A stretch of 64,000 nt of DNA, from assembly GCA_017406985.1 (NCBI GenBank), contig JAFQXL010000004.1:433708-497707 (forward strand), in the 5' to 3' direction. Source of the stretch: Candidatus Saccharimonadota bacterium. GTDB lineage: Bacteria; Patescibacteriota; Saccharimonadia; Saccharimonadales; Saccharimonadaceae. A program made the position numbers and the translations under genes. The notes under the pieces were generated by a model, which saw only the letters and a list, made by a program, of their open reading frames with translations, searched no databases and was not told where the DNA came from. This document shows, piece by piece, positions 56,620 to 63,887 of the stretch (positions within the stretch are counted from its first letter, which is position 1; each line of letters begins with the position of its first letter).

Positions 56620-56712
56620 TAGTATTATAGGGGTTATGTAATATAAAAAAATGGAAGAAATATTTTTTAATATGTTTATGCTTAAAATATAATAGCTAAA
56701 AAGTTGAAGATA

Positions 56713-56721
56713 TGGTATCAT
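56713..56721 (+). promoter_or_regulatory. Extended -10 promoter of the first pilin-like gene, leaderless
   Basis: TGGTATCAT ends six bases before the ATG at 56728. Confidence 0.45.
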
Positions 56722-56727
56722 AAAGGT

Positions 56728-57204
56728 ATGAAAAAGATTTTTAGTCTTGTTTTAGCGTTGATATTGGGGATAACAGTGACGACGGTGGTGTTTCCGAGTG
56801 AAACACAAGCCTGGAGCGAACTTTCTCAGGATAAATGTGAACATTCGATTTTAGGGCTTAGACCTTGGTTTGCGGGATTAACGGATGAGGCGAAAGATAG
56901 TACGGGGAAAGCAACTTGTATAATTAAGTCTCCTGGACAGATTTCGTCGGATAATCCGCAAGCAACCTATTTTTGGACGATTGTTTTAAATATTTCAGCG
57001 GATATTTCCCTGATTGCGGGGTATGTTGCGATTATATTTATGGTTTATGGCGGCTATAAATATATTATGTCGACAGGAGAACCTGGGAAAGTTGCGATGG
57101 CGAAGTCGATTATTACAAACGCTTTAATCGGGCTTGTAATTGCGATTTTAGCGACAGTAATCGTAAATACAATCTTAATGGTAATTGGGGCTAACGCAAG
57201 TTAA
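56728..57204 (+). CDS. VirB2/TrbC-like pilin, paralogue 1
   Basis: The 158-residue protein has an export signal (MKKIFSLVLALILGITVTTV), an outer part with two cysteines, and two C-terminal helices. The helices carry the family hallmark MVYGGYKYIMSTGEPGKVAMAKS and NALIGLVIAILATVIVNTIL. VirB2/TrbC proteins are the pilus subunits of type IV secretion. The ATG at 56728 is chosen over a TTG eight codons earlier because that TTG lies before the -10 box. It heads three co-directional genes. Confidence 0.8.
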   Translation: MKKIFSLVLALILGITVTTVVFPSETQAWSELSQDKCEHSILGLRPWFAGLTDEAKDSTGKATCIIKSPGQISSDNPQATYFWTIVLNISADISLIAGYVAIIFMVYGGYKYIMSTGEPGKVAMAKSIITNALIGLVIAILATVIVNTILMVIGANAS

Positions 57205-57213
57205 GGAGAAAAG

Positions 57214-57513
57214 ATGGAGAAATTTTTAGCAGATTGGGGGGAAGGTATGAACAAGGCGGCGGAAAATATCCCGAAAAATGGCGATGTTAGCCTAGTCGGA
57301 ATTTTAAACTGGTTTTATGCGCTAGCGGGGTTAGTCGCGGCGGGATTTATCGTCTATGGGGCGATAAATTATGCAATGACGCAGGGTGATCCTGGAAAAA
57401 TTAAACAAGCAGGACAGACGATTGCTTATGCGGTAATCGGGCTTGCGGTCGTGTTACTCGCGGCGGCGATTACGAACTTTATTGCTGGCGCAGCGGCAGG
57501 GACGGCAAGTTAG
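57214..57513 (+). CDS. VirB2/TrbC-like pilin, paralogue 2 (no signal peptide)
   Basis: The 99-residue protein has two helices joined by IVYGAINYAMTQGDPGKIKQAG, followed by AYAVIGLAVVLLAAAITNFI. It matches its neighbours in the two-helix pilin core but lacks an N-terminal signal helix, with a short polar start instead (MEKFLADWGEGMNKAAENIP). It could be a minor subunit or an inner-membrane pilin form. AAGGAGAAAAG before the ATG gives a good ribosome site. Confidence 0.78.
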   Translation: MEKFLADWGEGMNKAAENIPKNGDVSLVGILNWFYALAGLVAAGFIVYGAINYAMTQGDPGKIKQAGQTIAYAVIGLAVVLLAAAITNFIAGAAAGTAS

Positions 57514-57520
57514 GAGGAAT

Positions 57521-57952
57521 ATGAAAAAGATTTTAGGAATTTTAATCGCGCTTGGAATAACTATTTCGGGGATTTTTGTTTCAACGCCGGTAATGGCAGC
57601 AGACTGTACGGGTGGGATTTCAGATACGAGTTGCAATAAATCTTGTAGTGAAATTACGGATCCGACCTTAAAAGCGGCGGCGGGATGCGACACGTCCTCA
57701 GATGATTCTATAACAGGGCACCTTTTGAACATTATAAATTATGCGATTACAGCGGTCGGAATTATCGCGGTGCTCGTAATTGTGATGGGCGGACAGAGAT
57801 ATATAACGGCGCAAGGCGACCCTGGAAAAGTTAAGTCGGCAAAAGACATGGTTATGTATGCGGCGATTGCGCTTATAGTTTCGGTAATAGCGTTTGCGAT
57901 TGTGAATTTCGTGTCGCAAGCGATTACGTCGAATGCGAATACGGGAGTGTAG
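57521..57952 (+). CDS. VirB2/TrbC-like pilin, paralogue 3
   Basis: The 143-residue protein starts at the ATG at 57521, with AGGAGG three bases before it. It has a signal peptide (MKKILGILIALGITISGIF...VMAA), a cysteine-rich outer part (four cysteines in about 30 residues, probably disulfides) and the pilin core VLVIVMGGQRYITAQGDPGKVKSAKD with the helix MYAAIALIVSVIAFAIVNFV. It follows paralogue 2 by seven bases in the same transcript. Confidence 0.82.
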   Translation: MKKILGILIALGITISGIFVSTPVMAADCTGGISDTSCNKSCSEITDPTLKAAAGCDTSSDDSITGHLLNIINYAITAVGIIAVLVIVMGGQRYITAQGDPGKVKSAKDMVMYAAIALIVSVIAFAIVNFVSQAITSNANTGV

Positions 57953-57978
57953 GTTGCGACTACTACATAACTTACCTC

Positions 57979-58006
57979 TTGCGTTCTTCTTTTGATATGG
58001 TATAAT
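57979..58006 (+). promoter_or_regulatory. Strong promoter of pilin paralogue 4
   Basis: TTGCGT (57979-57984), 16 bases, TATAAT (58001-58006) with an extended TGG. A 32-base leader with AAAGGAAAC follows. This gives the gene its own strong promoter. Confidence 0.65.
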
Positions 58007-58038
58007 AACGTTAAGATAATAAAAGGAAACTTAATAAA

Positions 58039-58455
58039 ATGAAGATTTCTAACAAAATTAAAACAGTTGCAGCTGGTTCTGCTTCTGTGATTGCGGCGGG
58101 ATTAAATGCAGGTGCGGCGAACGCAGCTGTTGTCTATTGTCCGGATGGTAAAGCTTCTACTACTGGCGACCTTTCGGGATGTACTACTGGTAATAAAGGC
58201 GTAAACGCAAGCCAAAACAAGAATGACCTTATGTCTACCCTTACAACGATTATTAACGTTATCATCGGTGTAATCGGATTTGTTGCGGTTATCGTTATTA
58301 TCCTCGGCGGTGTTCAATATACAACTTCGGCTGGTGATCCAGGAAAAGTTAAAAAGGCAAAAGACACAATTCTCTACGGAATTATCGGTCTTGTTATCGC
58401 GCTCCTTGCGTTCGCAATCGTTAACTTCGTTCTTACTGCAGTTATGGGCAAATAG
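58039..58455 (+). CDS. VirB2/TrbC-like pilin, paralogue 4, probable major subunit
   Basis: The 138-residue protein has a signal helix, a short outer part with two cysteines and the core IVIILGGVQYTTSAGDPGKVKKAKD plus LYGIIGLVIALLAFAIVNFV. It alone among the pilins has its own consensus promoter and its own strong terminator. Its codons also differ: ATC, AAC, TTC, CTT and GTT are preferred where the neighbours use ATT, AAT and TTA. These are signs of high expression, so it is the best candidate for the main pilus subunit. Confidence 0.85.
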   Translation: MKISNKIKTVAAGSASVIAAGLNAGAANAAVVYCPDGKASTTGDLSGCTTGNKGVNASQNKNDLMSTLTTIINVIIGVIGFVAVIVIILGGVQYTTSAGDPGKVKKAKDTILYGIIGLVIALLAFAIVNFVLTAVMGK

Positions 58456-58464
58456 TTAACACTT

Positions 58465-58495
58465 AAAAATAGTCTCTTTATTAGAGACTATTTTT
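58465..58495 (+). terminator. Terminator after pilin paralogue 4
   Basis: AAAAATAGTCTCT-TTATT-AGAGACTATTTTT (58465-58495) is a 13-base-pair perfect hairpin ending in five T. Confidence 0.88.
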
Positions 58496-58530
58496 GTGCT
58501 AAAATTAGGATAGATAATTTAAGGAGAAAA

Positions 58531-58992
58531 ATGAAAATTAAGAATGTACTAGGAGCGGCGTTAGTAATAGCCTCGATTGGGCTAGTTGCTTCTTCCCCAG
58601 TTTTGGCGGTAGGTTGTCCGAAGGGTTCGGTTCGTGGCGAGGGGACGGAAGTTTCGACGCTAGCGGAATGTAACGTAAAACAAGACGATAGTTTGATGCC
58701 GACGATTACGAATATTATTAACGTGATTATCGGTGTACTTGGGGTGGTTGCGGTTATTGTCGTTATTCTCGGGGGGTTCCAGTATTTATCTTCGACTGGT
58801 GACCCGGGAAAGATCAAGAAGGCAAAAGACACGATTCTCTACGGAGTTATTGGACTAGTTGTCGCAATTTTAGCGTTCGCGATTGTTAACTTTGTCCTTT
58901 CGTCGCTTACTAGTTCTCCTTCGACGACTTCGACGTCTACTTCAACCTCAACTTCAACTTCAACTTCAGCTCCGACGCCAGATACACACTAA
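58531..58992 (+). CDS. VirB2/TrbC-like pilin, paralogue 5, with Ser/Thr repeat tail
   Basis: The 153-residue protein has a signal helix, a short outer part with two cysteines and the core VVILGGFQYLSSTGDPGKIKKAKD with LYGVIGLVVAILAFAIVNFV. The last ~25 residues are an alternating Thr-Ser tail from the repeat TCAACTTC, ending APTPDTH; paralogue 4 lacks it. Such a tail could be glycosylated or could extend from the pilus. The repeat tract could vary in length by slippage. It has its own TGCTAAAAT box, AAGGAG site and terminator. Confidence 0.82.
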   Translation: MKIKNVLGAALVIASIGLVASSPVLAVGCPKGSVRGEGTEVSTLAECNVKQDDSLMPTITNIINVIIGVLGVVAVIVVILGGFQYLSSTGDPGKIKKAKDTILYGVIGLVVAILAFAIVNFVLSSLTSSPSTTSTSTSTSTSTSTSAPTPDTH

Positions 58993-59013
58993 ACTCGAAG
59001 CGTAAAGAAACTT

Positions 59014-59037
59014 AAATCCCCTTTAAAGGGGATTTTT
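59014..59037 (+). terminator. Terminator after pilin paralogue 5
   Basis: AATCCCC (59015-59021) and GGGGATT (59028-59034) with a run of five T (59033-59037). Confidence 0.8.
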
Positions 59038-59114
59038 GTGGCTAAAGGCTTATGCTTGAGTTTTTAGAGAGATTAGATAAAATAGAGATAAGTGTTTAAA
59101 GCGTTTGGGACGTT

Positions 59115-59145
59115 TAAAAAATCTCCCGCAGTTTCCTACGGGAGA
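59115..59145 (-). terminator. Terminator after hsp20
   Basis: On the minus strand TCTCCCG (59139-59145), a ten-base loop, CGGGAGA (59122-59128) and TTTTTT (59116-59121). The 170-base gap 58993-59162 otherwise holds only this hairpin and the pilin terminator. Confidence 0.75.
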
Positions 59146-59162
59146 AATCTTCTAGATAAAAA

Positions 59163-59642
59163 CTAGCTAACGTTAATCTTTTTAGGAAGATTAATCTGTT
59201 CCTTTTCAAAGGTAATAGTAAGAACACCGTCTTTAAGCTCAGCTTTAACAGTTCCCTCTTCTTCACGAACCGGAACCGGAAGAGCGATTGTTCTACTAAA
59301 TTCACCCCAATAACATTCCTGAATGTGCCAGCGAGTTGTTTGTTCATCTTCGCCGCCACTAAGGATACCGGAGATAGTAAGAATATTATCTGAAATTGTA
59401 ACGTCGAGATCATTTTTCGAGATTCCAGCAGTACGAGCTTTGACAACAAGCTTGTCTGCGGTTTCGTAAACGTCTACGGCTAACTGACCTGGGAAGTCCT
59501 CAGGTTCATCCCACTCTTCTTCTGCTTCTGCGGGAGCATCGTCAACAGCAACACCTTTAGACTCAGGCACAGTGTCTTCATCTAAAAACGCAGCGGCTAA
59601 TTCGTCTTCCATAAGCACGTCGTCGTCATTTGAACGAGCCAT
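59163..59642 (-). CDS. Small heat shock protein, Hsp20 family
   Basis: The 159-residue protein has an acidic ~50-residue start and the alpha-crystallin domain: LAVDVYETADKLVVKARTAG, ISKNDLDVTISDNILTISG, RWHIQECYWGEFSRTIALP, VKAELKDGVLTITFEKE, ending in the short KINV tail that contacts neighbouring dimers. It holds unfolded proteins without ATP. The start has a GGAGG ribosome site and a TATAAT box about 45 bases upstream. No CIRCE or HAIR operator is seen. Confidence 0.93.
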   Translation of the reverse strand: MARSNDDDVLMEDELAAAFLDEDTVPESKGVAVDDAPAEAEEEWDEPEDFPGQLAVDVYETADKLVVKARTAGISKNDLDVTISDNILTISGILSGGEDEQTTRWHIQECYWGEFSRTIALPVPVREEEGTVKAELKDGVLTITFEKEQINLPKKINVS

Positions 59643-59715
59643 TTGCTTTCCTCCACTAAATTAACTATTGTTATGCTTATTATAAGAATATTTTTAAAAA
59701 AACACAAGAGGTTTT

Positions 59716-60414
59716 ATGAATTTCACGGTAAAAAATACAACATTTAGGTCGGTTTTAGACATAATTTACCCCTGTTATTGTCGGGGATGCGGAAAATTTG
59801 GCGAAGCATTTTGTTTGCGTTGTTATAATTACAACAAGGCGCTAAACCCGCCTTTTTCACGTGTTTTATTACCGGATTTCCATAAGCTTTTTGTTTGTGG
59901 ACTGAGAGAAGGGGTTTTATCCGACTTAGTTTCGGAATATAAATTTCATTCTCGAAGACAATATGCGCCGGTTTTAGCCTCAATGATGGCGGATTTAGCG
60001 TTTGGTTTATCTTCTGATATGATTATTGTGCCCCTGCCGACGATTCGGCGGCATATTCGGAGTCGAGGATTTGACCATATTTTCCTGTTGTGCTCAGAAT
60101 TAGCGCAGTTAACTGGATTTTCGGTAGTTCCTCTACTCTCTAGGAAGCGCGAGACGGTTCAAGTTGGGAAAAGCAGCAAGATTCGGCGGTTCCAAGCGAG
60201 AGAGGCTTTCTCGCTTAATCTAGAGGCGATTTCGGGCTATTTTGGGCGGTCTTCCCTGTCGTTTTCGGACTTTTTGAAACCGATTCTGATTGTTGACGAT
60301 GTTTGGACGACGGGGGCGTCAATGAAGTCTGCGAGCTTTATCCTGAGGTCTTTTGGGTTTCAAAAAGTTTATGGCGCTGTTCTCGCCAAAAATGACGGCT
60401 ACGAGTTTAGCTGA
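59716..60414 (+). CDS. comFC: ComFC-like phosphoribosyltransferase
   Basis: The 232-residue protein has an N-terminal zinc knuckle (YPCYCRGCGKFGEAFCLRC), then YKFHSRRQYAPVLASMM, IIVPLPTIRRHIRSRGFDH and the PRPP-binding loop ILIVDDVWTTGASMKSA near residue 195. It belongs to the ComF/GntX family, needed for natural transformation with the single-strand DNA handling proteins. The C-terminal end is shortly followed by a convergent pilin gene. AAGAGG precedes the ATG. Confidence 0.9.
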   Translation: MNFTVKNTTFRSVLDIIYPCYCRGCGKFGEAFCLRCYNYNKALNPPFSRVLLPDFHKLFVCGLREGVLSDLVSEYKFHSRRQYAPVLASMMADLAFGLSSDMIIVPLPTIRRHIRSRGFDHIFLLCSELAQLTGFSVVPLLSRKRETVQVGKSSKIRRFQAREAFSLNLEAISGYFGRSSLSFSDFLKPILIVDDVWTTGASMKSASFILRSFGFQKVYGAVLAKNDGYEFS

Positions 60415-60418
60415 TTGA

Positions 60419-60829
60419 TTATTGTTGAATATAATTTACACCAACAACAGAGGTAAGAACGAAGTTAACGATTGCGTAAGCGAGGAGCGAGATAATAAGA
60501 CCGATAATCGCGTAAAGAATTGTATTCTTCGCGTCGGTAACCTTTTTACTGTCGCCACCAGATAAAATATAGCGGAGACCGCCATAGATAAGCATAATAA
60601 CAGAGATAATACCAACGATAAGAAGGATAACGTTTGTAATTCGGCCGAAAACACCTTGATCGCCGATTAATTCGGCCGGCATTCCGTCTGCACGAGCGGC
60701 TTCCGCGCCCTGTTCAGCAGGGGTTTTTTCGCCTTCGGCGTAAACAGTTAAAGCTTTTCCAGTCCATAAACAGAGAGCCGCACCGACTCCAGTGAAGATT
60801 TGAGAGATGTTTTTGACAATTTTTTTCAT
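60419..60829 (-). CDS. VirB2/TrbC-like pilin, paralogue 6 (opposite strand)
   Basis: The 136-residue protein has a signal helix, an outer part rich in Ala, Glu and Gly without paired cysteines, and the core MLIYGGLRYILSGGDSKKVTDAKN with LYAIIGLIISLLAYAIVNFV. It is clearly related to the five pilins on the plus strand but has GGDSKKV in place of the GDPGKV found in the others. It stands alone between comFC and tRNA-Ser, so it may be a separate minor pilin. Confidence 0.82.
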   Translation of the reverse strand: MKKIVKNISQIFTGVGAALCLWTGKALTVYAEGEKTPAEQGAEAARADGMPAELIGDQGVFGRITNVILLIVGIISVIMLIYGGLRYILSGGDSKKVTDAKNTILYAIIGLIISLLAYAIVNFVLTSVVGVNYIQQ

Positions 60830-63150: not shown

Positions 63151-63204
63151 TGGTAAGCGCTAGCTCTAACATCGCTTCGCGATGTATCGCTGACGCGCTT
63201 TCCA
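63151..63204. repeat. 54-base hairpin element, copy A
   Basis: The element starts TGGTAAGCGC and ends GCGCTTTCCA, giving an outer stem of three plus six pairs, then TAGC/GCTG, and a perfect seven-pair tip ACATCGC-TTC-GCGATGT (63169-63185). On the minus strand the tip contains GCGAAGC. It shares about 41 of 49 bases with copy B, and both are followed by CCATAAAATC. Confidence 0.6.
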
Positions 63205-63264
63205 TAAAATCGGCTTATGGTAAGCCTTTCGCTTCGCAAAAGTCTTTCCAAACGTCGTCGACCA

Positions 63265-63292
63265 CAAAAAATGAGAGCAAGCTCTCTTTTTT
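63265..63292. terminator. Bidirectional terminator of the tRNA operon
   Basis: AAAAAATGAGAGCAAGCTCTCTTTTTT: GAGAG-CAAG-CTCTC with A and T runs on both sides. It ends the minus-strand tRNA operon and any plus-strand transcript. Confidence 0.8.
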
Positions 63293-63306
63293 GTAATCTC
63301 CTAGTT

Positions 63307-63381
63307 TGGTAGGGCAGGTTGGAATCGAACCAGCATTGTATCCTTAGAGGGGATATGTCCTATCCGTTGAACGACTGCCCC
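63307..63381 (-). tRNA. tRNA-Arg (TCT), with C at position 33
   Basis: 75 bases with encoded CCA. Acceptor GGGGCAG pairs with CTGCCCT (G-U at the first pair), D arm GTTCAACGGATAGGAC, anticodon stem TATCC/GGATA and T arm GCTGG-TTCGATT-CCAAC (G-C/T-A partly wobble). The loop reads CCTCTAA, so the anticodon is TCT and the normally invariant U33 is C. Confidence 0.85.
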
Positions 63382-63394
63382 AGTTGACGCGTTT

Positions 63395-63443
63395 TGGTGA
63401 CTCGGGCGGGAGTAGACTGTGCCTTCTCCGCTTCCTCGTCTCC
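63395..63443. repeat. Hairpin carrying a copy of the tRNA-Arg(CCT) 3' end
   Basis: 63393-63413 is identical to 63477-63497, the last part of tRNA-Arg(CCT) including CCA. The other arm (minus strand GGAGACGAGGAAGCGGAG) pairs back onto this copy with a few mismatches. The element lies 35 bases downstream of that tRNA on its own strand. Confidence 0.65.
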
Positions 63444-63478: not shown

Positions 63479-63555
63479 TGGTGACTCGGGCGGGAGTCGA
63501 ACCCACAACCTTCTCCTTAGGACGGAGCTGCTCTATCCAATTGAGCTACCAAGCC
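63479..63555 (-). tRNA. tRNA-Arg (CCT)
   Basis: 77 bases with encoded CCA. Acceptor GGCTTGG/CCGAGTC with two G-T pairs, D arm GCTCAATTGGATAGAGC, anticodon loop GTCCTAA (CCT) and T arm GTGGG-TTCGACT-CCCGC with one mismatch-like pair. Position 33 is the normal T. Confidence 0.9.
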
Positions 63556-63563
63556 CTGGATAT

Positions 63564-63618
63564 TGGTAGACCGGTCGCTCTAACGTCGCTTCGCTCCGTA
63601 TCGCTGACCGTTCTTCCA
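63564..63618. repeat. 55-base hairpin element, copy B
   Basis: It is homologous to copy A: the central GCTCTAAC-TCGCTTCGC-GTATCGCTGA is shared. The outer arms differ in base but still pair (AGA/TCT and CGGTCG/TGACCG here, AAGCGC/GCGCTT in copy A). It lies eight bases upstream of tRNA-Arg(CCT). Confidence 0.6.
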
Positions 63619-63687
63619 TAAAATCTACGGACTACGTCCGTTTTTATCTTCGATAAAACTTACCTTCGGTAAGTATCGATTTTATGG
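63616..63687. repeat. 72-base cloverleaf-forming element
   Basis: The ends CCATAAAATC (63616-63625) and GATTTTATGG (63678-63687) pair perfectly over ten bases. Inside are three hairpins: ACGGAC-TAC-GTCCGT (63627-63641), TTTTATC-TTC-GATAAAA (63642-63658) and CTTACC-TTC-GGTAAG (63659-63673). Only five bases (63626 and 63674-63677) are unpaired outside the loops. No coding frame is present. Confidence 0.65.
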
Positions 63688-63733
63688 TGATCTCGGCGGG
63701 AGTAAGCTGTCGCTTTCTCCGCTTCTCATCACC
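63685..63733. repeat. Hairpin carrying a copy of the tRNA-Glu 3' end
   Basis: 63685-63703 is identical to 63761-63779, the 3' end of tRNA-Glu with CCA. On the minus strand GGTGAT pairs with ATCACC, GCGGAG with CTCCCGC (one bulge) and AAGC-GACA-GCTT closes the tip. It is related to the hairpin at 63395-63443. Confidence 0.65.
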
Positions 63734-63760
63734 AATTGAATAGACCTACGGTCCATCCAT

Positions 63761-63835
63761 TGGTGATCTCGGCGGGAGTCGAACCCGCGTTGACGGGATG
63801 AAAACCCGTTGTACTAACCGTTATACTACGAGACC
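63761..63835 (-). tRNA. tRNA-Glu (TTC)
   Basis: 75 bases with encoded CCA. Acceptor GGTCTCG/CGAGATC, anticodon stem ACGGG/CCCGT with loop TTTTCAT (TTC), T arm GCGGG-TTCGACT-CCCGC. It is the first gene of a three-tRNA operon on the minus strand. Confidence 0.95.
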
Positions 63836-63859: not shown

Positions 63860-63887
63860 ATTATATCAAAAAATAAAGATATTTCAA
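63860..63887 (-). promoter_or_regulatory. Promoter of the tRNA operon
   Basis: Minus-strand TTGAAA (63882-63887), 16 bases, extended TGA-TATAAT (TATAAT 63860-63865), 24 bases before the first base of tRNA-Glu. Confidence 0.65.

Follow-up and report, generated by a model that had tools for sequence, protein, structure and literature searches.

REP elements are short folded stretches of intergenic DNA that are moved by RAYT (Y1) transposases, and the repeats downstream of tyrT in E. coli (rtT RNA) contain about 19 nt copied from the tRNA 3' end. Here, we describe a folded element in a tRNA operon of a Candidatus Saccharimonadota bacterium, where, as in the tyrT repeats, echoes copy the 3' end of the preceding tRNA; E. 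coli tyrT/rtT differs in being longer, in being restricted to one locus and in lacking a cloverleaf, and no rtT match was obtained in our Rfam scans. Like bacterial MITEs and short palindromic repeats, the element is small, non-coding, palindromic, present in multiple copies at unrelated sites, and devoid of an enzyme of its own. Unlike MITEs, the copies found lie only at tRNA CCA ends, form a four-way junction with covariation, and have no known transposase partner. Mitochondrial repetitive and double-hairpin elements range from single and double hairpins to more elaborate ones, are potentially mobile and often lie near tRNA genes; they are likewise hairpins in compact genomes, but they are not anchored to tRNA 3' ends and no terminator layout is described for them (PMC2800124).

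The window, the whole 64,000-nucleotide stretch analyzed here, comes from contig JAFQXL010000004.1 of the genome that we call G000. Its tRNA operon runs on the minus strand in the order promoter, tRNA-Glu, spacer, tRNA-Arg(CCT), spacer, tRNA-Arg(TCT), and putative terminator. ARAGORN and Rfam placed the first gene, tRNA-Glu(TTC), at 63761–63835, tRNA-Arg(CCT), downstream of the cloverleaf, at 63479–63555, and the last gene, tRNA-Arg(TCT), at 63307–63381. A consensus scan found a sigma-70-type promoter (TTGAAA-16-TATAAT, 11/12; 63860–63887, minus strand) upstream of tRNA-Glu and no promoter-like site between the Glu and Arg genes, so the Glu spacer is probably transcribed. With this single good promoter and none before the Arg genes, the proposal of an earlier, sequence-only reading that the spacer RNA is made along with the tRNAs is probable.

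The Glu spacer contains, in order, a palindrome that begins inside the end of tRNA-Glu (ATCACCAATGGATGGACC-GTA-GGTCTATTCAATTGGTGAT, 63728–63767, minus strand), an exact 18-nt echo of the tRNA-Glu 3' end (CTCCCGCCGAGATCACCA, 63685–63702, minus strand), the cloverleaf, a further hairpin, and CTACCA. An exact 18-nt echo of the tRNA-Arg(CCT) 3' end lies in the Arg(CCT) spacer (63395–63412, minus strand). Such echoes, most of which start near the T loop, were seen not only after tRNA-Arg(CCT) but also after tRNA-Ser(TGA) and, in relatives, several tRNA-Glu and other genes (L068; L005, L017, L024, L027, L086), some of them two or three times in tandem. Elsewhere in the window (56704–60829), five or six consecutive short membrane proteins are mutually alike and, by eye, TrbC/VirB2-type pilin-like. 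The nearest named relatives of one window protein come from Candidatus Saccharibacteria genomes of animal gut and rumen.

The sequence-only reading had claimed a 72-base cloverleaf with ten-base complementary ends and three triloop hairpins between tRNA-Glu and tRNA-Arg(CCT). Its sequence, its coordinates (63616–63687) and its location between tRNA-Glu(TTC) and tRNA-Arg(CCT) are exact, and folding with both RNA and DNA parameters recovered the complementary ends and the hairpins on both strands. Both flanking genes lie on the minus strand, and this is the strand that matters for the cloverleaf, which corrects the earlier account. On this strand, 63687–63678 pair with 63625–63616 to form the 10-pair outer stem P1, which encloses hairpin 1 (63674–63658, loop GAA), hairpin 2 (63657–63643, loop GAA) and hairpin 3 (63641–63627, loop GTA), each of 6–7 pairs closed by a triloop. 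The first three minus-strand bases of the cloverleaf are the CCA of the exact tRNA-Glu 3'-end copy (63702–63685). The claim of only five unpaired bases holds for the junction, where five are free, but nine loop bases come on top.

The RNA fold reached −25.6 kcal/mol, with z of −6.6 on the plus and −6.0 on the minus strand, and the DNA fold gave z of −6.5 and −6.7 on the two strands; none of 200 shuffles folded as well. The paired fraction of 0.81 was the highest among junctions with at least three branches in all 80-nt stretches of the window, versus 0.75 for the best junction in three simulated 64-kb sequences. Overall, z is about −6.5 on both strands, whether as RNA or as DNA, and no four-way junction of the window is better paired. 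Further, an Rfam 15 scan of the window region returned no family match for the cloverleaf, and at the homologue loci the gathering score was reached by tRNA genes alone. The RF00005 matches were true tRNA genes only, in line with the earlier view of a cloverleaf without tRNA identity. We found no description of these elements in the literature searched, whose coverage was partial. The 72-base cloverleaf is real and one of a family of small folded DNA elements that had not been catalogued before.

A nucleotide search with the 141-bp region in 60 relatives gave no homologue of the cloverleaf body. The earlier reading had proposed a covariance search of Saccharibacteria genomes. A model built from the window copy alone found one homologue among 80 relatives, and in the genus it yielded six homologues in 5 of 174 genomes (E 6e-12 to 2e-5). 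In all, only 6 of the 174 genomes carry the element, which speaks against the mobile-element reading preferred below. Three homologues follow tRNA-Phe (G118, G033 and G198), and the others follow tRNA-Met (G194), tRNA-Val (G198) and tRNA-Pro (G168). All six lie on the tRNA strand at distance zero from the gene, its CCA forming the start of the outer stem; two of the tRNA-Phe copies start with CCACCA. Since the model search is blind to tRNA genes, this placement is a strong independent result. The copies occupy unrelated sites in six species (tRNAs of four isotypes at six sites, and the Glu echo), while the tRNA-Phe genes of G000 itself and of two other fetched loci are without the element. The nearest copies by sequence include those at different tRNAs in different species (G198-Val and G168-Pro, 70%; window and G198-Val, 69%). 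In the copies found, the family is restricted to tRNA CCA ends and to one genus of gut Saccharibacteria. Of the three suggestions of the sequence-only reading, that of a small mobile element agrees best with the recurrence of one fold at the ends of different tRNA genes across several species, and the most likely nature of the element is a non-autonomous palindromic DNA element.

Sequence identity between copies is 55–70%, and each copy folds by itself, with DNA z of −7 to −11. In the seven-copy alignment, whose fitting to the structure somewhat favours the covariation figures, 98.5% of pair cells are standard, both-sided changes occur at 18 of 29 pairs, and covariation is 0.506 versus a shuffled mean of 0.175 and at most 0.112 for slid versions. 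The homologues, on which the earlier reading had staked its claim, keep the pairing with compensating changes except at hairpin 3 in one copy (G033), where it is broken or degenerate. G-T pairs account for 3 of the 192 standard pairs in the cloverleaf copies; for comparison, they make up 7.6% in tRNAs (acceptor and T stems, 92 genes of the fetched loci). Their near-absence therefore favours pairing kept at the DNA level, and recent copying could be an alternative source of this scarcity.

The ten-base repeats, which had been considered as the ends of the element, do pair, but the element runs beyond them, through the further hairpin, to about 63564. Although the P1 arms are inverted repeats, the copies reach past them to YTACCA: 3' of P1 they carry GGAA or a close variant, then the hairpin P5 or a short hairpin, then YTACCA. 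P5, with conserved AGCGATAC...GTTAGAGC inside a variable outer stem, occurs in four of the seven copies as well as in a second window copy; two tRNA-Phe copies have a short hairpin at its place, and G118 is without it. In the window, this right part (63564–63615, minus strand) consists of AAGA, the P5 hairpin (ACGGTC-AGCGATAC..GTTAGAGC-GACCGGT) and a terminal CTACCA, and it is common to homologues L298, L300 and L301. Most copies continue into the fifth hairpin and YTACCA, so the extent of the window element is about 63564–63687.

A 54-nt repeat in the window corresponds to the right half of the element. The reduced second copy (63151–63220, minus strand; 82% match, direct repeat D3, alignment A10) has CCATAAgccgattTTATGG without the three hairpins, followed by P5 and CTTACCA, and it starts at the CTTACCA that closes the hairpins before it. 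As copies start at a CCA and finish in ACCA, elements can be stacked. The borders read ACCA to ACCACCA at both ends; this ACCA direct repeat is short and is present in every tRNA end anyway. At L301, 3' of tRNA-Val, AGAGCAAGTGGCYTACCATA-like units stand in tandem at the right end of the element. The pattern AGCGATAC..GTTAGAGC gave many viral-contig matches; no match to the cloverleaf model occurred among the 80 returned loci, and no phage record matched.

A hairpin followed by a T-rich tract, the usual criterion for an intrinsic terminator, was found on both the tRNA strand and the opposite strand. On the tRNA strand, hairpin 1 is followed by 5–7 T in the six homologues and by 4 in the window, where the run reads TTTTATC. 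On the opposite strand, hairpin 3 is followed by 5–6 T in the six homologues and by 5 in the window, where the candidate comprises plus-strand 63627–63641 and then TTTTTATC. Judged from these sequences, hairpins 1 and 3 with their T-runs look like a bidirectional intrinsic terminator. The element shares GC-containing hairpins and T-runs on both strands with intrinsic bidirectional terminators; in contrast to ordinary terminators, its hairpins are arms of a four-way junction that takes in the CCA, and it forms a family at several tRNAs. The next long reading frame beyond each homologue either is convergent or begins no closer than about 180 nt downstream, and therefore the element appears to end the tRNA unit there. 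The window copy sits inside the operon, its terminator looks weakened, and the two tRNA genes that follow it seemingly depend on read-through. The most likely role of the element would be that of a portable two-way terminator.

This layout also bears on whether the cloverleaf acts as RNA, either as a 3' trailer that pairs with the tRNA CCA and delays or guides 3' maturation, or as a released small RNA, which we consider unlikely. In the six homologues, a hairpin with 5–7 T precedes the rest of the fold, and the scarcity of G-T pairs and the lack of an Rfam match point the same way, even though every copy lies on the tRNA strand directly after the CCA, the window copy between tRNA genes behind a single good promoter is probably transcribed, and the long invariant AGCGATAC and GTTAGAGC of P5 could be read by a protein or an RNA. 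The related suggestion of a tRNA-like regulatory RNA was not borne out: Rfam finds real tRNA genes only, and the T-run of the homologues should end transcription before the full cloverleaf is made. A processing signal, also among the earlier suggestions, could still apply.

Taken together, the placement and the covariation are shown, whereas mobility and mechanism are what we infer: we lean towards a palindromic, non-autonomous DNA element, about 124 bp long, which lands at tRNA ACCA ends and carries terminators. Hairpin 1 with its T-run would end the tRNA transcript, hairpin 3 with its T-run on the other strand would end opposing transcription, and the T/A hairpin 2 would provide both T-runs, so that the three would make up a portable bidirectional terminator. 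The outer stem, including the tRNA's own CCA, and the P5 hairpin would form in single-stranded or cruciform DNA and may be what the moving machinery recognises, with ACCA left at both ends. In the window, the element would have come to sit mid-operon on a duplicated tRNA-Glu end, its broken T-run permitting read-through into the Arg genes.

A moving enzyme was sought among Y1 transposases in genus genomes and among tyrosine recombinases in the window's own genome. The element resembles REP in being short folded intergenic DNA; unlike in REP/RAYT systems, Y1 transposases (PF01797) were present in only 2 of the 48 genus genomes searched and in neither G000 nor G033, and a RAYT/Y1 mover was rejected on this ground. 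The only tyrosine recombinase of G000 resembles an ordinary XerC/D, and a dedicated integrase was rejected accordingly. This single XerC-like enzyme also weighs against another reading, in which a tyrosine recombinase or an integron-like system with its attachment sites in tRNA 3' ends once integrated here and left the element behind. Many integrase attachment sites begin close to the T loop, and so do the echoes that follow Glu, Arg, Ser and other tRNAs, but the spacing is 30–250 nt, no integrase is nearby, and the cloverleaf copies show a 4–7-nt repeat only, making such a remnant highly improbable.

Alternatively, no mobile element may be involved, and fold-back copying by replication template switching at tRNA ends or terminators, spread by gene conversion, may have produced the structures. 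Direct and inverted copies of tRNA 3' ends do alternate around palindromes, the arms copy the local tRNA end, and the pairing is Watson-Crick only. However, the same three hairpins and P5 recur at unrelated tRNAs in six species, which is hard to reach through independent fold-backs, and we regard this route as quite unlikely.

A second family of tRNA-tail elements (models R1 and R2) is commoner than the cloverleaf family. Its parts are P2 (GAACCC-GTA-GGGTTC), the core P3, in which GA mismatches stand in tandem, and the hairpin P4. It is situated about 60 nt downstream of many tRNA genes and includes a copy of the local tRNA 3' end (loci L119–L148 and L154–L173 besides the window). R1 matched 36 of 80 genomes, all of them among the 48 of the genus and none among the 32 of other genera, and R2 gave two weak matches outside the genus. 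In 32 copies, 96.9% of pairs hold, double changes occur at 29 of 29 pairs, and 19 of 854 standard pairs are G-T. In a sample of 77 copies chosen by model score, not at random, 38 follow a tRNA within 200 nt, invariably on the tRNA strand; in 29 of these 38, 10 nt or more of the 3' end of that very tRNA are present (0.8% for other tRNAs). The window copy (63248–63309, minus strand; R1, P3 core) starts at the tRNA-Arg(TCT) CCA, and its R1 match (E 2.5e-4, own genome) is independent of training. Its GAGAGC/GCTCTC hairpin with T6 is likely the operon terminator.

Several other tail structures were observed. In G013, near-identical related copies with P3 (L156–L159, L275) are found elsewhere than at tRNAs; their inverted ends, GGTGCTGGAC...GTCCAGCACC, resemble the tRNA-Tyr 3' end, and their spread is MITE-like. 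In the tRNA-Phe 3' flank of G000 (L047), inverted repeats with nested arms (ATAATTCGCA...TGCGAATTAT) make up a large multi-branched region, unlike either family by eye. Among fetched tRNA loci partly picked by model matches, multi-branched structures were counted in 36 of 144 3' flanks versus 12 of 144 5' flanks. Contigs G011:C14, G034:C9 and G020:C10 stop at most about 150 nt from a tRNA-Glu 3' end; assemblies may be breaking at the palindromic repeats there.

More broadly, we offer as a speculation, itself rather doubtful, that the tRNA 3' ends of this genus are landing sites of a new transposition route acting on folded single strands, either hairpins of DNA or RNA that ends in CCA and is copied by a polymerase. 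Such a route would spread several families of cruciform mini-elements that double as terminators and would reshape tRNA operons. Y1 transposases move comparable hairpins elsewhere. If our reading of the cloverleaf is true, a family of mobile terminators is fixed on the tRNA CCA ends of reduced-genome epibionts that seemingly do without these enzymes, and it offers a test case for folded DNA as a substrate of movement. The covariation provides a ready search model. Odd tRNA spacers would find an explanation in this family, as might some of the assembly breaks at tRNA genes, and the family bears on how read-through is gained and lost in tRNA operons.
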